From positions 1 through 52,316 of the IMG/VR virus record IMGVR_UViG_3300032278_000012: a DNA stretch of 52,316 nt; one strand, 5' to 3'. This stretch comes from a virus. The translations under genes and the position numbers were made by a program. Numbering within the stretch: position 1 is the first letter of the stretch; each line of letters opens with the position of its first letter. Shown here piece after piece: positions 12,396 to 52,316 of this stretch. The notes beneath the pieces are model-generated. The model was not told the origin of the DNA. It did not search any database and saw nothing but the letters and a program-made list of their open reading frames with translations.

Positions 12396-12625
12396 TATTT
12401 TTCCTCTATTTTATAATCCAAGTTCGCACCACGAACTTCAACTATTTTCTTGGTTTCCCAATCTCTGAATTTTAAGTGATTTGGTTTCTTGATCAGTATC
12501 CTCTTCGCATTATAATTTGACCGATACATATGTCCACCTTCGGACTGTCTGTATACGGTGATTTCAAATTCATCAAGAAAGAGATGAATGAACCATTTCC
12601 ATATTTTTTTCAATCTATTCTTCAT
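12395..12625 (-). CDS. Hypothetical protein, 76 aa
   Basis: The N-terminus is basic and aromatic (MKNRLKKIWKWFIHLF), possibly a membrane-associating helix; the rest is beta-rich with many basic residues (NAKRILIKKPNHLKFRDWET). The frame extends to 12670, but Met at 12625 looks better. TAA overlaps the next ATG. No family recognised. Confidence 0.5.
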   Translation of the reverse strand: MKNRLKKIWKWFIHLFLDEFEITVYRQSEGGHMYRSNYNAKRILIKKPNHLKFRDWETKKIVEVRGANLDYKIEEK

Positions 12626-12673
12626 AATTTGACCGAGGGAATCTCCCTCTTCCTTCCAATATATAGCCACCTA

Positions 12674-12710
12674 TCTCCTAAACTTATCCTTCATAGTCTT
12701 ATTTAGGAGA
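12674..12710. repeat. Perfect 9-bp inverted repeat, possible terminator
   Basis: TCTCCTAAA (12674-12682) and TTTAGGAGA (12702-12710) flank a 19-base loop. The plus strand has TTTTT directly after the stem, so the geometry suits a rightward terminator although no rightward gene is near. On the minus strand it separates the HAD gene from the 76-aa gene and could act as an RNA-stability element. Confidence 0.4.
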
Positions 12711-12713
12711 TTT

Positions 12714-13214
12714 TTAGGTAGGGTCGGGGGTTCTCAATGCCTTGAGTTGATCAATTGTTGATCTTGCACTGGTGTGTAGGATTCCTATTCCACCATTTTT
12801 TTCCCAAGCATCGATGTTTCTTTGTCTATCGTCAATCAACACACAATTTTTCATTGCAAATCCACCCTTCTGATTACCATTATAGGTGCAAGTGACTACA
12901 ACATTAGGACTGACCCACTGTTTGATCCACTCATTTTTGTCGTAAACAACCAGTTCTCTGTTAATAGTCCCAGCTGCAGTCAAAATTTCCCAAGGTAATT
13001 CGGTGTGTCTGATGTATGCAAGTAAATCATGCATATCCACCATTGGTGGTAGATTTCTAAAGAGTCTTTTGTTCGTTAATTCTAACTTTCTTTGATCATA
13101 GATCATGTGACCATTATTATCAGGTGTTAATGGTTCTCCAATCATGGCAGAACAACCCTGTATAAAGTCGGCAAGGACTCCATCCATGTCTACAAATATT
13201 CTTTTTATGTTCAT
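12714..13214 (-). CDS. HAD-family 5'(3')-deoxyribonucleotidase-like phosphatase, 166 aa
   Basis: HAD motif I VDMDGVLADF near residues 7-16 (nucleophile Asp and acid Asp), motif II LTAAG, a lysine-containing middle section and motif IV VLIDDRQRNIDAW. The pattern matches the NT5C-type deoxyribonucleotidases common in phages, which dephosphorylate dNMPs and help balance nucleotide pools. The start at 13214 is used (MNIKRIFV). A consensus early-like promoter lies 47 bases upstream, consistent with early nucleotide metabolism. Confidence 0.7.
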   Translation of the reverse strand: MNIKRIFVDMDGVLADFIQGCSAMIGEPLTPDNNGHMIYDQRKLELTNKRLFRNLPPMVDMHDLLAYIRHTELPWEILTAAGTINRELVVYDKNEWIKQWVSPNVVVTCTYNGNQKGGFAMKNCVLIDDRQRNIDAWEKNGGIGILHTSARSTIDQLKALRTPDPT

Positions 13215-16958: not shown

Positions 16959-18041
16959 TTATCCACCCTTCTTTGTTGCTGGATAATTGTTTTCGGGTCG
17001 TACATAGTCAGGTGAAACTTCTGATGGTTTTTTGATATATTTCTCAGATTTATGAGGTCTCTTCACTTCGTCAAATGTGAAGTTATTGATATACTTTGCC
17101 ACCTCTTCTGAGTCCATTCCTTCATAAACATTAAGAAGCCAGTCTGCCATTCTCTTCTTCTCAGGTGATTCATCGTCAGTATCATAACGATTCCGTCTTC
17201 CATCAAAATCTAACACTGTTCTAGGTTCTGCATTTATTCCTGCTTTGTTATCCCATGTCATCTCATAGGTTGCATCAGGCATCTCTCTGACCTTACCTAA
17301 GTCATTAATGAAATGAAGAAAGACATGATAACTATACTCACCTAATAAATAATCTCTCCAATGTGCAATGTTCGGGCCTTGGTAAACGAAGATGTCGCCT
17401 GGCTCTAAATCAAAACGAACTGAACCTGCCTCTACTCTATCCCTATTTTTTAATGCTTGGGTTTCTTCATACAATGTCTCTTGGTCTTTTCGTTTTAGTA
17501 TCCAATTCTCAGTTGAGTTGCCCCATAGTGTCCATGGAGTGTTATCATCTGTCTTATAATCCAAACAGAGAGTGACACTTATTTCACATGATGGTCTATC
17601 TGAATGTGCTTTGAGATATGCACCTCGATAATATTTTCTTGTATAAGAATAGGTCTCTCTTAATTTGAGATTGAGATAATCTCTTAGTTTATTTCTGACA
17701 TAGTGGTGAAGTGCAACTGCTGGTGGGAAACAGTAGGCACCGTGTGATTTTTCTAATGAACTTTGAGGAGATTCTTGAATGATGTCTACTTCTCTGTCAC
17801 CAAAGTATAATTTTTGTTGATCAGGATTATTCTCAATGACTTTCCATGCATCCAAAGTCATCGTGATAATCTCTTTAGGGATAAAATCTTTTAGAACAAT
17901 ATATCTATCGTTAACAAAATCTAGTGTGGTTTGATCAGTGAATCCAGTGTAAGGAGTCTCCTTATCTGAATGTTCATCATGAACCTTTTCTTTTATTCTC
18001 TTGTCATATCGCGCAAGTTTCGCACTCGTCACCGTCATCAT
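16959..18041 (-). CDS. 2OG-Fe(II) oxygenase-like protein between nrdA and nrdB, 360 aa
   Basis: Contains RGAYLKAHSDRPSCEISVTL (HxD metal ligands) and LEPGDIFVYQGPNIAHWRDY (distal His) with YHVFLHF, a cupin/double-stranded beta-helix pattern. The C-terminal ~110 residues are charged and may be disordered. It overlaps the end of nrdA by 38 bases. Similar large oxygenases occur in marine T4-like phages; the substrate is unknown. The position within the nrd cluster suggests joint expression rather than a proven role in reduction. Confidence 0.65.
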   Translation of the reverse strand: MMTVTSAKLARYDKRIKEKVHDEHSDKETPYTGFTDQTTLDFVNDRYIVLKDFIPKEIITMTLDAWKVIENNPDQQKLYFGDREVDIIQESPQSSLEKSHGAYCFPPAVALHHYVRNKLRDYLNLKLRETYSYTRKYYRGAYLKAHSDRPSCEISVTLCLDYKTDDNTPWTLWGNSTENWILKRKDQETLYEETQALKNRDRVEAGSVRFDLEPGDIFVYQGPNIAHWRDYLLGEYSYHVFLHFINDLGKVREMPDATYEMTWDNKAGINAEPRTVLDFDGRRNRYDTDDESPEKKRMADWLLNVYEGMDSEEVAKYINNFTFDEVKRPHKSEKYIKKPSEVSPDYVRPENNYPATKKGG

Positions 18042-24345: not shown

Positions 24346-24422
24346 TGGAGCTGGTGGTCAGATTCGAACTGACGACCTGAGGTTTACAAAACCCCTGCTC
24401 TGGCCAACTGAGCTACACCAGC
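24346..24422 (-). tRNA. tRNA-Thr (anticodon TGT)
   Basis: The minus strand folds into a cloverleaf: acceptor GCTGGTG/CACCAGC, D arm GCTCAGTTGGCCAGAGC, anticodon stem GGGGT/ACCTC with loop TTTGTAA, T arm with GTTCGAATC, discriminator T and encoded CCA. It begins right after the stop of the gene at 24423. Confidence 0.93.
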
Positions 24423-44360: not shown

Positions 44361-45639
44361 TTAACGAACCCCCCCATTGCTCAGAAAGTTTATCCTGACT
44401 TCCTTGTAAGGGTAACCACTCGTTGATAAATTGTTCATAGTCGTTGATTCTTGATAATCCTCTGTCATTTAAGAGAGAAGGATTCTTTATGTATTTATCT
44501 ACATGATCCATGTAATGCTCAACTGTTTGCATAACATTATAGAATGCTAACAGGTGAGACCCATCGAAACCAATGTCACTATGCCACTTAATTTTATTCT
44601 CTATATTTCTACTTGACCACTTAGTGCATTCTTCAATTAAGAAATCATAATCAAGTATATTAAAGGTCTTGAATGCCTCTTTATTTTTCTCATATAAATC
44701 ACTGAACACTGGAACTAACTGATTTTGATAAATCCATGTGTCTGACTTCTTCGTTGTTGCTGGACTCTCTATATCAATGTTAATCCAATTCTCGTCTCTG
44801 TATCTTGAGAAGAACCATGAGTTGGCATGAGTTGATGAATCGTAAGAAACATTTTTTACAAAACTAAAATACTCAGGTGATATGAAAAATGGCATCATCA
44901 TTTTGTGTGATCCCACTCCCAATAAATGAATGTTCTCTTTAAGAGACATTGGAATCTCTAAACCTTTAACTGCGTAGATCATTTCCATTCGGTTATCAAG
45001 ACTTGCACCACTACATGCAGACGATAGAGAAATACCACAACAGTGTGATAACTCTTCTTCTGTTAATCCATTCACAATCGTTTCAATGTATTCTCTGTAT
45101 GATTCTAAGTCCTGTCCTTGAACTATGAGTGTAATCTTAGTGTCACTTTCTAGTGCATTAAACACTTGTATCTGTCTCTTAACATTTGTAAGTGTTGATC
45201 TTGCAGTATTACCAATTAAGTCTCTTGCAAATCTTCTACCAAATGTAGATGTCTTCATTGACCATCCACTATTTGATCCATCAAACTCCACTGGAATATC
45301 ATCAAAGATCATTGCAATATCTGAATAGGTTCCTTGATGATTATAAATCTTATCTTTTATCTCAGGTGTTAATCCTTTCTTTGTTCTTGAAAGTTGTAAA
45401 CCGCCACTGTCTGCATATAGATTATGCCATTGAGGAAGATAGTCATGCATTGCAACTCCATGACTTGGTTCTGTATGAGAATTGAACAACATGGATATGT
45501 TTTGATTATCATATTTGTCGTTCATATATGCTATCTTATTATTAAAGACTTCTGCATATGGAACAAGCACGGACTGATCGTAATAGAGATTACTAGTCCC
45601 CATCGTCATACCTGAGATTACATATTCAAAATTAATCAT
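44344..45639 (-). CDS. dpdA: DpdA-like DNA 7-deazaguanine transglycosylase
   Basis: 431 residues with a TGT-like barrel. YADSGGLQLSR (residues 76-85) matches the TGT DSGGFQ catalytic segment; HLLGVGSHKMMM and a Cys-containing CCGISLSSACSGASL support it. It replaces guanine in phage DNA with a preQ0-type base, as known for phage DpdA. Upstream genes supply the base. It overlaps folE by 8 bases and the phosphoribosyltransferase by 17. Length and motifs fit phage DpdA rather than host tRNA TGT. Confidence 0.8.
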   Translation of the reverse strand: MINFEYVISGMTMGTSNLYYDQSVLVPYAEVFNNKIAYMNDKYDNQNISMLFNSHTEPSHGVAMHDYLPQWHNLYADSGGLQLSRTKKGLTPEIKDKIYNHQGTYSDIAMIFDDIPVEFDGSNSGWSMKTSTFGRRFARDLIGNTARSTLTNVKRQIQVFNALESDTKITLIVQGQDLESYREYIETIVNGLTEEELSHCCGISLSSACSGASLDNRMEMIYAVKGLEIPMSLKENIHLLGVGSHKMMMPFFISPEYFSFVKNVSYDSSTHANSWFFSRYRDENWINIDIESPATTKKSDTWIYQNQLVPVFSDLYEKNKEAFKTFNILDYDFLIEECTKWSSRNIENKIKWHSDIGFDGSHLLAFYNVMQTVEHYMDHVDKYIKNPSLLNDRGLSRINDYEQFINEWLPLQGSQDKLSEQWGGSLNEFFT

Positions 45640-46279
45640 TCACAATCGACATAAATTCTGCTCGTGCTTGAGGAATATCAAAGAATGCACCACCCAATCT
45701 ACTTGTAACCATAGATGAGTTTACATCTTCAACACCTCTTGCTTTTACACAGAAGTGATCACACTCCATGTAAACTGCAACATTGTCAGTTTCTAATATC
45801 AACTGTAATGCACGAAAAGTTTGTTCAGTTAATCTTTCTTGAACTTGTGGTCTCCTTGCAAAGAAGTTTACCACTCTGTTTAGTTTTGACAGTCCTATTA
45901 CATTTCCAGTAGGAATGTATGCAACATGACATTTACCGTAGATGGTTTGAAAATGATGTTCACAAACTGACTTAACAATGATGTTCTTTTGAACTACCAT
46001 TGAATCAAATTTCATCTTGTTTTCAAATATCGTGCATCTAGGAAACTTCTCATAATCCATTCCACTGAATAGTTCATCAAAGAACATAGTTGAGACTCTA
46101 AGAGGACTATCTCTCATGGAATCATCTTCCATATCACAACCAATTTTTTCCATTATATCTCGGAATTTCATTTCGACAAACTCAACATTATGTTCATAAC
46201 CACCGTTCATTGGAGTTTCTACTCCCAATTCAATTAAATGATTGTGAACTTGTTGTCCTAATTCTGCATCATACTTCAT
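45632..46279 (-). CDS. folE: GTP cyclohydrolase I
   Basis: 215 residues from the ATG at 46279, ATGA-coupled to the amidotransferase gene. Zinc and catalytic segment KSVCEHHFQTIYGKCHVAYI near residues 103-122, VIGLSKLNRVVNFFARRPQV, then QERLTEQ and MECDHFCVKARGV (zinc Cys). It converts GTP to 7,8-dihydroneopterin triphosphate, the first step to preQ0. Its co-localisation with queD/E/C shows it serves base modification, not folate. Confidence 0.93.
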   Translation of the reverse strand: MKYDAELGQQVHNHLIELGVETPMNGGYEHNVEFVEMKFRDIMEKIGCDMEDDSMRDSPLRVSTMFFDELFSGMDYEKFPRCTIFENKMKFDSMVVQKNIIVKSVCEHHFQTIYGKCHVAYIPTGNVIGLSKLNRVVNFFARRPQVQERLTEQTFRALQLILETDNVAVYMECDHFCVKARGVEDVNSSMVTSRLGGAFFDIPQARAEFMSIVND

Positions 46280-46950
46280 TCTATCTCTCCAAACCAATAT
46301 GGATTTTCTTTCGTTTCAAATCTATTTAGCGGTTCTAAAACCTTATTGTGAAAATCCATTTTATAATTAACTCCTGCTTCAGTTTCCCACCATGACTCAT
46401 TAAACTGAACTGAACTAATATTCAAATCTCCATCATAAAACAATGGACTAATCTCATTTCTAAAAAGGGTGACTTGCTCTCCGTCATATCTTGCACAACT
46501 AAATGTTCCATCAACATCATCAAGATAACCACCTAGTAATATGTGTCTATGTAATAATTCTGTATCCCAACTAAGACCACCATATCCGTCTTGCCATTCT
46601 TTTATTTGATACTCTTTAATGATACCATTGTGCCATAACATATCCTGTCTTATACAGGAAGGATGCATATCTTTACTTTGTGTTGTTGGTGCTTGAACAT
46701 GACCTAACCAATATGTCTTATAAAGTGTTGAATCATATTCTTTAAAATAATCCCTGTCCCAAGTTATTCTTGGAAATTCACCAAGAGATTTTCTCATTCT
46801 TGAACTAAAGACCGTTTCACCGTCTCTATAATGTTTAAATGCACCTGTAACAAATTGTGTTACAGACCATGAATAATCACCTCTATACTGATTAGCAGTT
46901 GCTAACTCTTCAAACTTTTCTTTATCAAAACTTCCAAATATCGCGCACAT
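46276..46950 (-). CDS. Class II glutamine amidotransferase (Gat) of the Gat-QueC type
   Basis: 224 residues starting MCAIFGSF: after Met removal Cys becomes the N-terminal nucleophile of an Ntn glutaminase. Further class II features: YRGDYSW, WLGHVQAPTT, WHNGIIKE, and YDGEQVTLFRNEISPLFYDG. In phage 9g and some archaeal viruses Gat is fused to QueC and makes 2'-deoxyarchaeosine from preQ0. Here it is a separate gene that starts exactly at the end of queC, so the same amidine-forming role is likely. Confidence 0.75.
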   Translation of the reverse strand: MCAIFGSFDKEKFEELATANQYRGDYSWSVTQFVTGAFKHYRDGETVFSSRMRKSLGEFPRITWDRDYFKEYDSTLYKTYWLGHVQAPTTQSKDMHPSCIRQDMLWHNGIIKEYQIKEWQDGYGGLSWDTELLHRHILLGGYLDDVDGTFSCARYDGEQVTLFRNEISPLFYDGDLNISSVQFNESWWETEAGVNYKMDFHNKVLEPLNRFETKENPYWFGEIE

Positions 46951-47684
46951 TATAATGTTACCACCCAGTCTATTATTATATCATAAGGTATAGGGTCTTG
47001 CCTACCGACTTTCATGAAATTCATAATTCTTTCTGCACATGATGGACACTTCCCACATGATACTGATGCAAGAGGTTCATAGCAAGTCATTGTATGTTTT
47101 AATAGATCGAACTGACCTAAGTCTATTGCAATTTTAATCTCATCTGCTTTTGACATCTGACTGAACGGTGCAACAATCTCAATCGTATTATGTCTATTCT
47201 GTGATGCAACTGCATTCATTGAATCAACAAACTTTTGTGTTGTATCCCAATAACCATATTCATCATGAACTTGTAAACCTGTATAGACCTTATTACACTT
47301 CTGAACCTCTGCTTGCGATAATGCGAGTGATAGTAAAATCATATTCCTAAATGGAACATAGGTCACTGGTTGAGGATCACCCAACACTTCTTTAATGTTA
47401 GGCATGTCTATATCTGTCCCTTCAATATTTGCAGATAACGGTCTTGCGATCTCTCCTAATATACTTAAATCTAATACGGTGTGTTCAACACCCAATGCAT
47501 TACAAAGTTCCCTTGCTTTAAATATTTCTATTCTTTGTTTTTGATTATAGTCAAAAGTAACTGCTTTAACATTGTCTTTACCATATTGGTCTACTAACAT
47601 CATGGTTGCCACGGATGAATCTAACCCACCTGATAACACTACCAATACTTTATCGTCTAATTGTTTAACTTTTAATTCATTCAT
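46950..47684 (-). CDS. queC: 7-cyano-7-deazaguanine synthase
   Basis: 244 residues from the ATG at 47684 (MNELKVKQLDDKVLVVLSGG). The PP-loop SGGLDS is at residues 18-23; YVPFRNMILLSLALSQAEV follows; the zinc cysteines sit in CYEPLASVSCGKCPSCAER. It converts 7-carboxy-7-deazaguanine to preQ0 using ATP and ammonia. Eight-base overlap with the upstream gene and one-base contact with the amidotransferase gene. Confidence 0.93.
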   Translation of the reverse strand: MNELKVKQLDDKVLVVLSGGLDSSVATMMLVDQYGKDNVKAVTFDYNQKQRIEIFKARELCNALGVEHTVLDLSILGEIARPLSANIEGTDIDMPNIKEVLGDPQPVTYVPFRNMILLSLALSQAEVQKCNKVYTGLQVHDEYGYWDTTQKFVDSMNAVASQNRHNTIEIVAPFSQMSKADEIKIAIDLGQFDLLKHTMTCYEPLASVSCGKCPSCAERIMNFMKVGRQDPIPYDIIIDWVVTL

Positions 47685-48387
47685 AATCGTATATCGTTCT
47701 AATTTTAGATTCATCATATCCAAATGTTTCTACCTGTTGGATAAGACCATCTAAAATAAATTTATGTAAATCAGGGAACATATCACCTGCTGAGTTTGGA
47801 CTTCCATGAAATCCATCGTCCTTTGCTTTGTTATATAATTCTTTCTCAGGGATTATTGCAAAATTTTCTATTGCACCAACTTTTTTTAATTCTGTTAATG
47901 ACTCTTTTGCTGGATCATAATTTCTTTGTTTTGGATTGAAATTTGCAATCACATTTTTATATGGATGTCCTAATCCTTGCATAGTTATAAAAAAGAGCAT
48001 CATTCTCTCATACATTACACTTTTATATAACTCATCATTCTCATGTGGCCCTGCTTCGTAATTAAGATACGGCCATGACTCCCAAAATGGTTCGGGAACC
48101 ATACCACCATTTGATACAACAATCATATCTACTTTAGGCCCAAAACTCTCTTGAAATTTTCTCCATTTTTGACTGCGGTAATAGGGTCTAGTCGATGTGC
48201 ATAAAGATAAGAATGCAGTAGGTTGTGTTGGTATATGTTGTTCCACTACTCTTTCAAATGCTTCATGTAATATTGGAAGTTTTAAAACTTTCGTTTCACA
48301 ATCCATTTCACTGGATGGAATCCAATCATCTGACCGAAAAAGTTTTTCATCACCTTTAGGGAGAAATTTATCTCTGTCTATTTTCAT
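47677..48387 (-). CDS. DUF5591/ArcS-like protein in the deazaguanine operon, 236 aa
   Basis: FLSLCTSTRPYYRSQKWRKF, with MIVVSNGGMVPEPFWESWPY and LNYEAGPHE, resembles the region of archaeosine synthase (ArcS) and related DUF5591 proteins that reads C-x-x-x-x-P-Y-S-x-S-x-x-H-x-x-F. ArcS adds lysine to preQ0 in archaeal tRNA. The similarity is by memory and pattern only. A role in modifying the 7-substituent is possible. It lies between queE and queC. Confidence 0.5.
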   Translation of the reverse strand: MKIDRDKFLPKGDEKLFRSDDWIPSSEMDCETKVLKLPILHEAFERVVEQHIPTQPTAFLSLCTSTRPYYRSQKWRKFQESFGPKVDMIVVSNGGMVPEPFWESWPYLNYEAGPHENDELYKSVMYERMMLFFITMQGLGHPYKNVIANFNPKQRNYDPAKESLTELKKVGAIENFAIIPEKELYNKAKDDGFHGSPNSAGDMFPDLHKFILDGLIQQVETFGYDESKIRTIYDYE

Positions 48388-48541
48388 CTCTAGGTTTAGT
48401 TTGATAGTTCACTCGACAATAATCACTACAAAAATTAGAATCTTTATTTTCTACTCTATTAAAATCTGTAATTACAGATGTAAATGGGTCTCCACAATAT
48501 ATGCAGACTTCTTGTGAAGATCGTGCTATTCTTTTACTCAT
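48368..48541 (-). CDS. Small zinc-finger protein, 57 aa
   Basis: Read from the minus strand: MSKRIARSSQEVCIYCGDPF, then ENKDSNFCSDYCRVNYQ. C-x2-C plus C-x3-C forms a treble-clef or MYM-type zinc site. Its ATGA overlaps the queE stop, and it overlaps the ArcS-like gene by 20 bases, so it belongs to the modification operon. Confidence 0.6.
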   Translation of the reverse strand: MSKRIARSSQEVCIYCGDPFTSVITDFNRVENKDSNFCSDYCRVNYQTKPRDENRQR

Positions 48542-49365
48542 GTTCCTATTTGATTACCCCATATGTAACAGTGGACTCTTGCAGAAACATTATATCCTCT
48601 TTCCATGGTTTGTTCTGCAACCATCGCTGCATTATCGTGTTGACTTTCTTCTGTTGCACCTACAGGCATAATCCATATTGGATAGTTCACTTTAGAATGT
48701 CTAAAGGTTGCAATTGCATCTTCTATCTCATCCCATGATTGTTCTGAACCATTACAAACAAACTTTAACTGACCCACTTCTGATGCCCGAGTATATCCAG
48801 CAACTATATCAGGACAAATTCTATCCTTTTCTCCACTGGTTCCAAATATCTTAGGACTAACAGAAAAGAAAAATTCAGTATCTAATGCTTGCATCATATT
48901 ATGTAATTCGGGTAGTATTTCTCTTGTTCCATTGGTTTCAATAGTAATCTTTGGAATTTTACCATATGCAACAAAGTATTCTAATATCTTGACTATGTTT
49001 TTTTGTGCAGCCTTCAATAACGGTTCACCACCTGTAAATGCAAGATGGTTATCATGTTTTATCTTATTGAGTAATCGAGTTGCTACCTCTTCAACGGTTT
49101 CATTCTTTTGAAGATGTTTGAATCTTTTTGACCACGAGTAAGAAGAATCACAACCATACTTAAAGACTGGTAAAGACTCTATCGTTTGCATAGGATGTAA
49201 TGGTAGTTCTAGATAAGGTAATTCATAAGTAGATGGATCAGTAGGGTCTTTCTGACCAAACCCATTACACTCTAAATTACATCCAAAAAATCTTAACCAT
49301 ACTGTTGTCACTCCTGTATAGTGTCCTTCACCCTGTATGCTTTTGAATATTTCAGAATATAACAT
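48538..49365 (-). CDS. queE: 7-carboxy-7-deazaguanine synthase (radical SAM)
   Basis: 275 residues. FKSIQGEGHYTGVTTVWLRF is the typical start of QueE, followed by GCNLECNGFG with Cys29 and Cys33. The third cluster Cys is most likely Cys72 in KYGCDSSYSWS, giving C-x3-C-x38-C: an insert of about 36 residues compared with C-x3-C-x2-C enzymes. AFTGGEPLL and TIETNGTRE are canonical radical SAM/QueE segments. It makes 7-carboxy-7-deazaguanine from 6-carboxytetrahydropterin. Confidence 0.9.
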   Translation of the reverse strand: MLYSEIFKSIQGEGHYTGVTTVWLRFFGCNLECNGFGQKDPTDPSTYELPYLELPLHPMQTIESLPVFKYGCDSSYSWSKRFKHLQKNETVEEVATRLLNKIKHDNHLAFTGGEPLLKAAQKNIVKILEYFVAYGKIPKITIETNGTREILPELHNMMQALDTEFFFSVSPKIFGTSGEKDRICPDIVAGYTRASEVGQLKFVCNGSEQSWDEIEDAIATFRHSKVNYPIWIMPVGATEESQHDNAAMVAEQTMERGYNVSARVHCYIWGNQIGT

Positions 49366-49886
49366 TATCTCATGCTTGGTAAATCCCCATGTAAGATTTC
49401 TCTATTAAGGTCTTTAAGATCACTAAATCGAAGTCTATCGGGGTCTTTAAACGGTTCATAGATTGCAGAGTTTTTTGCACACTCATGATGTTCACTACTT
49501 ATTACCCAACATCTACTCTCATATTTTTCTTTCAGAAATGAATCTACATACTCACCAACATATTGTGCAAGCCCTTCACTACTAATTAAAGGAAATGTCT
49601 GTAATTTACAATGACCGTCTTCGGTCAATCCTTGAAAGGTAGGGACTAATGGATCATCAGATTGAAGGATTACTGTGTGGTCAAACCATTCGTCAAGTTG
49701 TCTTTTTACTTCTTTTAAACCACCAAAGTCTACTACAAAACCTTGCTTGTCTAAATGTTTACATCCAAAAACAAACTTAAATGAACGATCATAACCATGC
49801 AGTAAATAACAATCGGTGTCTGACTTCCAATTCCTATAGGCACAAGGCCCGATTTCAATATACTCTTTAGTTGACGTAAAACTCAT
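49365..49886 (-). CDS. queD: 6-carboxytetrahydropterin synthase-like (QueD)
   Basis: 173 residues. CYLLHGYDRSFKFVFGCKHL and FVVDFGGLKEVKRQLDEWFD plus HTVIL match the PTPS/QueD fold, with Cys26 as the catalytic Cys. The classical HGH zinc motif reads HGY here, so the metal site differs from standard QueD; later SSEHHECAKNSAIYE may supply ligands and the catalytic His/Glu. It converts dihydroneopterin triphosphate to 6-carboxytetrahydropterin. It abuts the peroxiredoxin gene and overlaps queE. Confidence 0.8.
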   Translation of the reverse strand: MSFTSTKEYIEIGPCAYRNWKSDTDCYLLHGYDRSFKFVFGCKHLDKQGFVVDFGGLKEVKRQLDEWFDHTVILQSDDPLVPTFQGLTEDGHCKLQTFPLISSEGLAQYVGEYVDSFLKEKYESRCWVISSEHHECAKNSAIYEPFKDPDRLRFSDLKDLNREILHGDLPSMR

Positions 49887-50393
49887 CTAAAGATTTTCTA
49901 AAACATTCTGTGGTGTTGAAACTATATAAGGATCAGAATCGATGTTATCACCGAATCCATCTTCTACAAAAGTTTTTTCTATCACTCCGTTATCTACGAC
50001 TAATGCATATCTCCATGATCTTCGACCAAAACCGAGATTTGCTTTTTCTACTTCTGCACCAATTTCATGAGTAAATTCACCATTACCATCGGGTAATGGA
50101 TAAACATTAACAATACCTAATTGATCAAACCAATTATTCATTGCAAAAGTATCATTTACTGATAAACAGTAAATTTCTTCAATACCTTTTCCTTGAAATT
50201 GTCTATATAATTCTTCAAAGCCTGGCAACTGGTAAGTTGAACAGGTTGGTGTAAATGCGCCTGGCAATGCAAATAAAATTATTCTTTTGCCGGCAAATTG
50301 TGTTCCTGTTTCAAGGAACGCGAAGTCATCTCCTACCCTTATAGGTAAGGTAACATTAGGGATTGTATCTCCCACTTGAGGATTAAAACTCAT
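49887..50393 (-). CDS. Peroxiredoxin (Prx5-like), 168 aa
   Basis: PGAFTPTCSTYQLPGFEELY carries the P-x-x-x-T-x-x-C peroxidatic motif of Prx5-type peroxiredoxins; YCLSVNDTFAMNNWFDQLGI is also typical. It reduces peroxides with help of a thiol donor such as the phage glutaredoxin. It is the first gene of the deazaguanine operon, downstream of a promoter with an operator-like palindrome, so both may be induced together. Confidence 0.9.
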   Translation of the reverse strand: MSFNPQVGDTIPNVTLPIRVGDDFAFLETGTQFAGKRIILFALPGAFTPTCSTYQLPGFEELYRQFQGKGIEEIYCLSVNDTFAMNNWFDQLGIVNVYPLPDGNGEFTHEIGAEVEKANLGFGRRSWRYALVVDNGVIEKTFVEDGFGDNIDSDPYIVSTPQNVLENL

Positions 50394-50941: not shown

Positions 50942-50949
50942 TATTTATA
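50942..50949 (-). promoter_or_regulatory. Late-type promoter TATAAATA before hsp20
   Basis: Exact T4 late-core match 62 bases upstream of the hsp20 ATG. It would give late expression beside the middle-like promoter at 50964-50994. Confidence 0.45.
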
Positions 50950-50963
50950 ATACTATAGTACCT

Positions 50964-50994
50964 ATTATACAGATTTTTTTGAAATAGACTAGAG
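50964..50994 (-). promoter_or_regulatory. Middle-like promoter before hsp20 (CTCTAGT box)
   Basis: CTCTAGT (50988-50994), 18 bases, TATAAT (50964-50969). The box is part of AAAACCCTCTAGTC followed by TATTTCAA, nearly identical to the copy before uvsX. It overlaps the stop codon of the cyclase gene. Confidence 0.5.
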
Positions 50995-52316
50995 GGTTTT
51001 GTGTAATTTCCTTACTTCTTTTCTTCCACCATATCTTGTATCAAATAACGGTGCATATATGATCACTGGTTCATCTTTTCCCTTTACTTTAATTTCATCT
51101 ATTTTTTGACATGGAATATCTTGTAATTTGTTGTAAGTGTATTCAGATATTAAAATAGGTGTATCAAATGTCCTTGTTTGAACTTCAAGTCTTGCACCGA
51201 GGTTAACAGCATCCCCGACTACTGAATAATCGAATCTTAGTTCAGAGCCCATATTCCCTACAATACAAGTTCCAGTGTTGACGCCTGTTCCTATGACAAC
51301 TGGTGGTAAATCTAATCCTTCTTCCTTTATTTCTTTGTTCATTTGTTCAGTCAGGTATTCTATTTCCATTGCAGATTTAACTGCCATATCTGCATGGTTT
51401 TCACACGGTAAGGGTGCATTCCAAAATGCCATAATACAATCGCCCATGTATTTGTCTATGGTTCCACCATTATTAAGTATAACCCTAGTCATCCCATCTA
51501 AGAATCTATTGATAAGTTCTACCAGTCCTTCGGGATCATCTCTCTGCATGTATGATTCACTAATAGGAGTAAATCCAACAATATCAGCAAACATAAAGGA
51601 CATCTCCTTTCTATCTCCACCAAGTCTCAATAGTTCGGGCTCTTTTTGCAGCTTTTCAACCATGTCAGGTGATAAATACTTTTGAAACTGCTTTCTAATT
51701 TGTTCTTTAAGTTGGAAAGTAACGTAGTATTTGTTAAACGACGCATGGCCGAACACGAATAGGGAGGCTACAGATGAGTAGAAAGTATCAACGAGAACGA
51801 GACTTGAAGACCATGCGTAATAGCCTATACCCACCTGACATCCAACAATACCTAGACTCACTATCCCCGCAAAAGCTGTGGGAAGTTTGTAGACCACTAC
51901 AAGCAATATTAAGAGAACTACCAAGAGGAGAGCAAATTCGAGCAATTCAAGATAAAAGGATCGTTGTATTTGGACTCCTGTCAAAACGGTATGAATCAGG
52001 TTGGCTTGAACTTCGTGGGGATACATTGCACCCACTGGGGTTGAAACTGGATTGTCAAATCCCTCAGCTGTCATACCCCAAATTAAAATCTTATTCTCAA
52101 GGTTTGTCGTGACTAAATCAGCGGCAGAAACAGACTGGAATTTATTCCAATAAGTTATCATGATATCACCAGTGGGAGTTGTTTGGATTGGAGGCTGCAC
52201 GCCCATTCTGATCCACTCGACTCCGACTTCTGTCACCTTTAATTGATAACTTGGTTGATCGAAATATGCACGAAGAGTTTCTAATGCAAGAGAAGGATAT
52301 AACTGATTATTAGCAA
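50989..52316 (-). CDS. CHASE2-type membrane adenylate cyclase (5' end beyond window)
   Basis: The frame is open to the right edge, so the N-terminus is missing. From the edge: the end of a periplasmic CHASE2-like sensor (LYPSLALETLRAYF; WGMTAEGF), three membrane spans (about 51690-51960), then a class III cyclase domain. FMFADIVGFTPIS holds the first metal Asp, DKYMGDCIMAFWNAP the second and the purine Lys, and DYSVVGDAVNLGARLE the Asn and Arg of the transition state. Lys with Ser at the base-specifying positions suggests ATP as substrate. It would make cAMP in the host membrane in response to an outside signal. Confidence 0.85.
   Translation of the reverse strand, partial: ANNQLYPSLALETLRAYFDQPSYQLKVTEVGVEWIRMGVQPPIQTTPTGDIMITYWNKFQSVSAADLVTTNLENKILIWGMTAEGFDNPVSTPVGAMYPHEVQANLIHTVLTGVQIQRSFYLELLEFALLLVVLLILLVVVYKLPTAFAGIVSLGIVGCQVGIGYYAWSSSLVLVDTFYSSVASLFVFGHASFNKYYVTFQLKEQIRKQFQKYLSPDMVEKLQKEPELLRLGGDRKEMSFMFADIVGFTPISESYMQRDDPEGLVELINRFLDGMTRVILNNGGTIDKYMGDCIMAFWNAPLPCENHADMAVKSAMEIEYLTEQMNKEIKEEGLDLPPVVIGTGVNTGTCIVGNMGSELRFDYSVVGDAVNLGARLEVQTRTFDTPILISEYTYNKLQDIPCQKIDEIKVKGKDEPVIIYAPLFDTRYGGRKEVRKLHKTL

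Follow-up and report, generated by a model that had tools for sequence, protein, structure and literature searches.

Cyclase gene at the right end of the window

The window (the whole stretch of marine bacteriophage DNA analysed here, 52,316 nucleotides) ends on its right inside an open reading frame on the minus strand (52314–50989) that encodes 441 residues and is open at the contig end. Full-length relatives have 601–641 residues (683 in Melnitz) and the window protein aligns with them from about residue 192 onward, so that this CHASE2 adenylate cyclase gene (50989–52314, minus strand) is 5′-truncated, with 441 of an expected ∼630 residues, and its product lacks ∼190 (about 191) N-terminal residues. 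Pfam places a CHASE2 domain (PF05226) at residues 4–137 with an E value of 1.8e-15 and a Guanylate_cyc domain (PF00211) at residues 236–416 with an E value of 2.5e-19 (70 bits against a cut-off of 21.9), both well over their cut-offs. The CHASE2 match spans profile positions 128–255 of 257 and the window therefore holds only the C-terminal half of this domain; the full-length relative L001 has a complete CHASE2 (Pfam E 1.4e-29). In the AlphaFold model of L001, which is of good quality over CHASE2 and the membrane-spanning segments and poor over the catalytic domain, the periplasmic CHASE2 is flanked by one N-terminal and three C-terminal membrane helices. Helices 312–335, 338–363 and 370–402 of this model, shifted by 191 residues, give the helix positions in the window protein.

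On this basis, the C-terminal part of the periplasmic CHASE2 (residues about 1–114) is encoded at 51973–52314, the three membrane helices and the start of the cytoplasmic linker (residues about 121–211) at 51682–51954, where hydrophobic stretches are visible in the translation, and the complete class III catalytic domain (residues 236–416) at 51067–51609, all on the minus strand. The solved structures nearest by sequence (phmmer) are a phytochrome–cyclase fusion, Pseudomonas aeruginosa CyaB and further bacterial class III cyclases, CyaC among the matches, and a Foldseek search with the L001 model agrees with these assignments. The gene thus encodes a membrane-bound CHASE2 class III cyclase, seemingly intact except for the cut at the contig end. 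By its architecture this is an inner-membrane protein: the CHASE2 sensor lies on the periplasmic side, the cyclase, of class IIIb type as judged from its sequence, lies in the cytoplasm, and the full-length relative has four membrane helices.

Catalytic residues and nucleotide specificity

The preliminary description had stated that all catalytic residues are visible, and this holds. Metal-binding Asp244 lies in the segment FADIVGFT (codon 51583–51585); codons 288–292 (KYMGD, 51439–51453) supply the adenine-recognising Lys288 and the second metal ligand, Asp292; codons 364–375 (51190–51225) supply Ser364, a base contact of class IIIb type, and the transition-state residues Asn371 and Arg375, all on the minus strand. 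Both Asp residues, the Lys and the Arg are kept in 83 of 83 phage homologues, and the Ser and the Asn in 82 of 83 each. A misalignment of these residues is ruled out by the phmmer alignment with cyclases of solved structure together with their conservation across the 83 homologues. At the Ser364 position, 79 bacterial relatives have Ser (64) or Thr (15). Lys combined with Ser or Thr is a sign of ATP-using class IIIb cyclases; the window cyclase is predicted to be ATP-specific, with cAMP as its probable product. The single exception is the Melnitz cyclase (L083:9431–11482), which has Ser in place of the catalytic Asn and Asp in place of the base-contacting Ser. The activity of this enzyme is possibly altered or lost and, given the Asn-to-Ser change, cyclase activity may not persist in every phage.

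Phage identity and neighbouring genes

Homologues of gp43, NrdA, NrdB, UvsX, gp41 and gp61 identify the window as a T4-like phage, in keeping with the original assignment of the membrane-bound CHASE2 cyclase to such a phage. Its gene content overlaps more with that of Pelagibacter phage HTVC008M than with that of the compared stretch of cyanophage S-SM2. NrdB is 68% identical to that of HTVC008M versus 59% to that of S-SM2, and UvsX 70% versus 56%; the DNA polymerase is closer to S-SM2 (48%) than to HTVC008M (45%). A tRNA-Thr(TGT) gene (24346–24422, minus strand) matches a stretch of the SAR86 genome G057 at 90% over 59 bases, and the best match of the tRNA-Ala gene, to an alphaproteobacterium, is 79%; these matches do not single out a host. 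G057 also encodes a CHASE2 cyclase.

The neighbour about 110 bases 3′ of the cyclase is phage hsp20 (50466–50879, minus strand; Pfam PF00011, E 1.6e-19; PHROG 432), as the preliminary description had noted. In 39 of 39 same-clade contigs that reach far enough it is found downstream of the cyclase, and this recurring order refutes a chimera with host DNA. A redoxin/peroxiredoxin gene (49887–50393, minus strand), also present in HTVC008M and most relatives, separates hsp20 from a block on the same strand (45632–49886) that encodes FolE (GTP cyclohydrolase I), QueC, a DUF5591-like protein, a QueE-like radical SAM protein and QueD (PTPS). This gene set suggests 7-deazaguanine modification of DNA or tRNA; a tblastn search found no match to these genes in HTVC008M. 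Elsewhere in the window, a protein encoded at 16959–18041 (minus strand) matches phage ferrochelatase-like families (PHROG 2954).

A T4-type late promoter motif, TATAAATA, is located between the cyclase and hsp20 (50942–50949, minus strand). Across the whole window the motif is not commoner than chance. It precedes hsp20 in 14 of 42 related loci, which are not independent of one another, compared with a background of 1.7%; upstream of cyclase starts it is found in 0 of 72 cases, upstream of FecR in 0 of 42, of CsgG in 0 of 40 and of CsgF in 1 of 40 (HTVC008M). hsp20 is probably a separate late transcription unit. The absence of the motif upstream, combined with a position beside replication genes, points to early or middle expression of the cyclase and the genes inherited with it, probably together with regA, gp44 and gp62 and before the late hsp20.

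A curli/FecR cassette in the relatives

The window ends inside the cyclase, and its relatives, including the closest (74% identity), carry curli genes upstream. In 31 relatives the sequence extends 7.3 kb or more upstream of the cyclase; 30 of these have the order CsgF–CsgG–curlin–FecR–curlin–cyclase and the sole exception has FecR–curlin–cyclase only; FecR is present in all 43 relatives with at least 4 kb upstream. In the closest relative, Pfam matches CsgF (5.9e-13), CsgG (1.8e-48) and FecR (1.4e-8), and the curlin repeats are weak. By analogy with these relatives, the window phage would carry its own curli and FecR genes beyond the right edge. The cyclase is probably not the free-standing sensory enzyme of the preliminary description, since it occupies the end of a curli/FecR cassette in the relatives.

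Cassettes of this gene content were found at three kinds of insertion site, which are newly seen here. In the clade of the window the cassette lies between regA and hsp20/(peroxiredoxin)/gp43. HTVC008M and Melnitz carry the same gene set between gp32 and the tape measure gene. In other contractile-tailed phages (L055, L060 and L078) it is near tail-fibre-like or collagen-repeat proteins and tail-sheath-type genes. L048–L080 had been considered as podophages; L055, the one tested, has tail-sheath genes and is thus contractile-tailed. A candidate gp32 at L001:1292–2239 proved to be the clamp loader gp44. Additional genes occur between the second curlin and the cyclase: a NifU-like protein in L001 (8873–9355) and, in the third phage group, a DUF5658-like protein and an NAD/FAD-binding oxidoreductase (L078:7934–9150).

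A pelagiphage curli cluster with FecR and adenylate cyclase is described by Wittmers et al. 2022 (PMC9599517), and the HTVC008M cyclase is annotated as such (AGE60353). The window gene is therefore of an already known type. The relatives of the window phage have the same genes as HTVC008M, with the cyclase last, and the window protein is 46.7% identical to the HTVC008M cyclase over 420 residues; the cassettes of the window's clade and of HTVC008M differ in insertion site. Zaragoza-Solas et al. 2020 (PMC7029224) and Buchholz et al. 2022 (PMC9004378) treat the curli genes of the cluster, and the words ‘cyclase’, ‘CHASE2’ and ‘FecR’ were not found by text search in either.

The FecR protein and its C-terminal tail

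The N-terminus of the phage FecR resembles a signal peptide. Each of the 25 distinct phage FecR proteins, which are related and do not represent 25 independent events, ends in a hydrophobic-x-hydrophobic (or Thr)-x-Gln motif followed by 0–3 residues. In a 12-sequence alignment, a variable region closes with the invariant residues Ile374, Ile376 and Gln378. Most cassette curlins also end in this motif, and the C-terminus of Escherichia coli K-12 CsgB, AIRVTQR, is comparable. Of 20 FecR proteins encoded at bacterial loci that lack curli none has the motif, and 2 of 501 other phage genes do, a comparison that is descriptive, as the motif was first noticed in the data and counted afterwards. The FecR model is weak (mean pLDDT 53.6); it ends in six short strands, the last of which is the tail motif, and part of it, of low confidence, resembles the PupR cell-surface signalling domain. 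The last repeat of CsgB, R5, has been implicated in CsgF binding (PMC10192328), and FecR may likewise dock on curli components through its tail. The curlin-like strand at the end of phage FecR is a new observation; text searches of PMC9599517, PMC7029224 and PMC9004378 gave no mention of it or of the domain exchange described below.

Bacterial counterpart and probable exchange of domains

A scan of GTDB contigs with a single-protein query gave no match, and a query with an alignment did. The best match, a Caulobacteraceae MAG (L084), has CsgF, CsgG, two curlins, FecR and a CHASE2 cyclase in a row, amid glycosyltransferase, peptidase and TonB-receptor genes, and these six genes also occur together in another genome of this GTDB family (L205). 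Their cyclases are 93% identical and thus represent a single lineage. Around the remaining CsgF-bearing loci retrieved from this family and its class, no FecR or cyclase was detected. Both bacterial FecR proteins share the C-terminal motif. The phage cyclases form one group (SH-aLRT 92) with the Caulobacteraceae pair as its sister (SH-aLRT 94). All six genes occur together as in the phages, but in the bacteria two curlins precede FecR, whereas in the phages curlins flank it, and identity to the phage cyclase is only about 36%. According to Wittmers et al. 2022 (PMC9599517), FecR and the adenylate cyclase are not found in bacterial T8SS operons; the Caulobacteraceae cassettes are an exception to this statement.

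Directly 3′ of the cyclase in L084 is a gene for a PycTM-type membrane effector (12464–13057, E 8.8e-25), which a phmmer search did not find in L205. A cyclase on a Rickettsiales MED657 MAG contig (L085) forms a long branch beside the phage and Caulobacteraceae group, and no curli genes occur within the fetched stretch of that contig. More broadly, about 22 of 80 bacterial loci have FecR close to the CHASE2 cyclase, and curli are absent from all of these except one.

Comparison of phage cyclases reveals unequal identities in the two halves. L010 and L040 are 95% identical in CHASE2 and 58% in the cyclase domain; L040 and L027 are 64% identical in CHASE2 and 90–97% in the cyclase domain; the linker is 85–100% identical in the compared pairs. 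The simplest reading is that recombination at the linker has swapped sensor and cyclase halves among phages.

A possible curli-sensing relay

In the relatives, CsgF, CsgG, two curlin-like proteins and a secreted FecR are co-inherited with the cyclase. We propose, with the balance of probability about even, that the cyclase is the output enzyme of an envelope signalling relay within a phage-borne curli (type VIII secretion) cassette, in which FecR couples curli secretion to the CHASE2 cyclase. FecR would dock by its curlin-like tail on the curli pore or fibre (CsgF, CsgG or curlin), CHASE2 would read whether FecR is occupied or free according to curli export, and cAMP synthesis would be switched on or off while infected cells export curli. 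The sequence features are observed; the contacts of FecR with CHASE2, CsgF and curlin, the coupling to the cyclase, its product and its target are putative. More tentatively, the phages may have captured a complete fibre-sensing circuit that was assembled in a bacterium before transfer, with an exported, curlin-strand-mimicking FecR informing the CHASE2 cyclase of the state of the curli pore or fibre that the phage makes, which would give the infected cell a new second messenger, and with the halves of the cyclase then reshuffled among phages.

Parts of such a relay have bacterial parallels. In Sinorhizobium meliloti, the outer-membrane barrel NsrA feeds the CHASE2 cyclases CyaD1, CyaD2 and CyaK (PMC13001267); these are likewise CHASE2 cyclases under an outer-membrane protein, but they are bacterial and not phage-borne, act via Clr and are described with no mention of curli. 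The BiofilmReg operon of Burkholderia pairs an exported FecR/LysM protein with a CHASE2 sensor and is linked to biofilms (PMC5192318), but its output is a histidine kinase instead of a cyclase and it is not found in phages.

Alternative interpretations

A different envelope signal (ions, osmolarity or membrane stress) could act on CHASE2, the curli genes being adjacent because a whole bacterial operon was captured and kept for the sake of another gene. The ligands of CHASE2 domains are mostly unknown (PMC5192318), sensor and cyclase halves recombine, and most bacterial CHASE2 cyclases were found, with or without FecR, outside curli operons. However, the linkage to FecR and curli is nearly complete over three kinds of insertion site and the curlin-like tail of FecR is specific to curli cassettes, and we regard this explanation as unlikely.

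The preliminary description had suggested that the cyclase raises host cAMP and that host transcription is redirected during infection, which would require a CRP-type regulator in the host. Its enzymatic part stands, as a phage-encoded membrane CHASE2 cyclase predicted to be specific for ATP; its transcriptional part is weakened, because cyclic nucleotide receptors are mostly missing from the phages and from the SAR11 family. No cNMP-binding domain was found in 16 phage records, some of which are fragments, and a phage-encoded CRP-like receptor was accordingly rejected as a candidate. In 197 genomes that we take to be the SAR11 family, having reached them through a match to a 16S probe, a cNMP-binding domain occurs in 12, mostly as 870-residue proteins with marginal scores, and a class III cyclase in three; about three of the genomes have CRP-sized cNMP-binding proteins. 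This is the host family of the cultured relative HTVC008M and may not be that of the window phage, so the scarcity may not apply and the transcriptional role is no more than weakened. The CHASE2 cyclases of S. meliloti do act via a CRP-family regulator, Clr (PMC13001267). On balance, we consider a redirection of host transcription through a CRP-type regulator to be improbable.

A Pycsar-like defence or superinfection exclusion, in which the cyclic nucleotide would activate a membrane effector directed at competing phages, is more improbable still. PADLOC PycC models match the cyclase domain (E 5e-23) and the PycTM-type protein follows the cyclase in one bacterial cassette, that of L084. The position of Lys288, however, appears to be Arg in EaPycC (Arg142) and Asp in BcPycC (Asp94), with residues taken from PMC11224242 and positions mapped by their distance from the metal Asp, a placement that is certain for EaPycC and inferred for BcPycC, and is Lys in 83 of 83 phage cyclases. 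No PycTM was found in the 16 phage records, some of them fragments, and the downstream neighbour in the window is hsp20. The cyclase thus has neither UTP/CTP-type residues nor an adjacent PycTM or PycTIR effector, and the combination of Lys288 with the missing effector disfavours this route. Finally, although the gene is cut by the contig end, the chance that it arose as an artefact of the contig or is a host fragment in decay is negligible, as its frame is open, the catalytic residues are kept in the family and the same gene order recurs in many contigs and in the isolate HTVC008M.

Implications

The purpose of phage-borne curli is debated, with published proposals that extend from the timing of lysis to the capture of siblings; the literature has so far treated FecR and the cyclase as putative regulators. 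The tail of FecR offers a concrete and testable physical link between fibre export and the cyclase. If the proposed relay is correct, it would provide a new second messenger to the infected cell in a lineage where a cAMP system is almost lacking, and the near-absence of cAMP components in the SAR11 family sharpens the question of what role a phage-made cAMP may have there.
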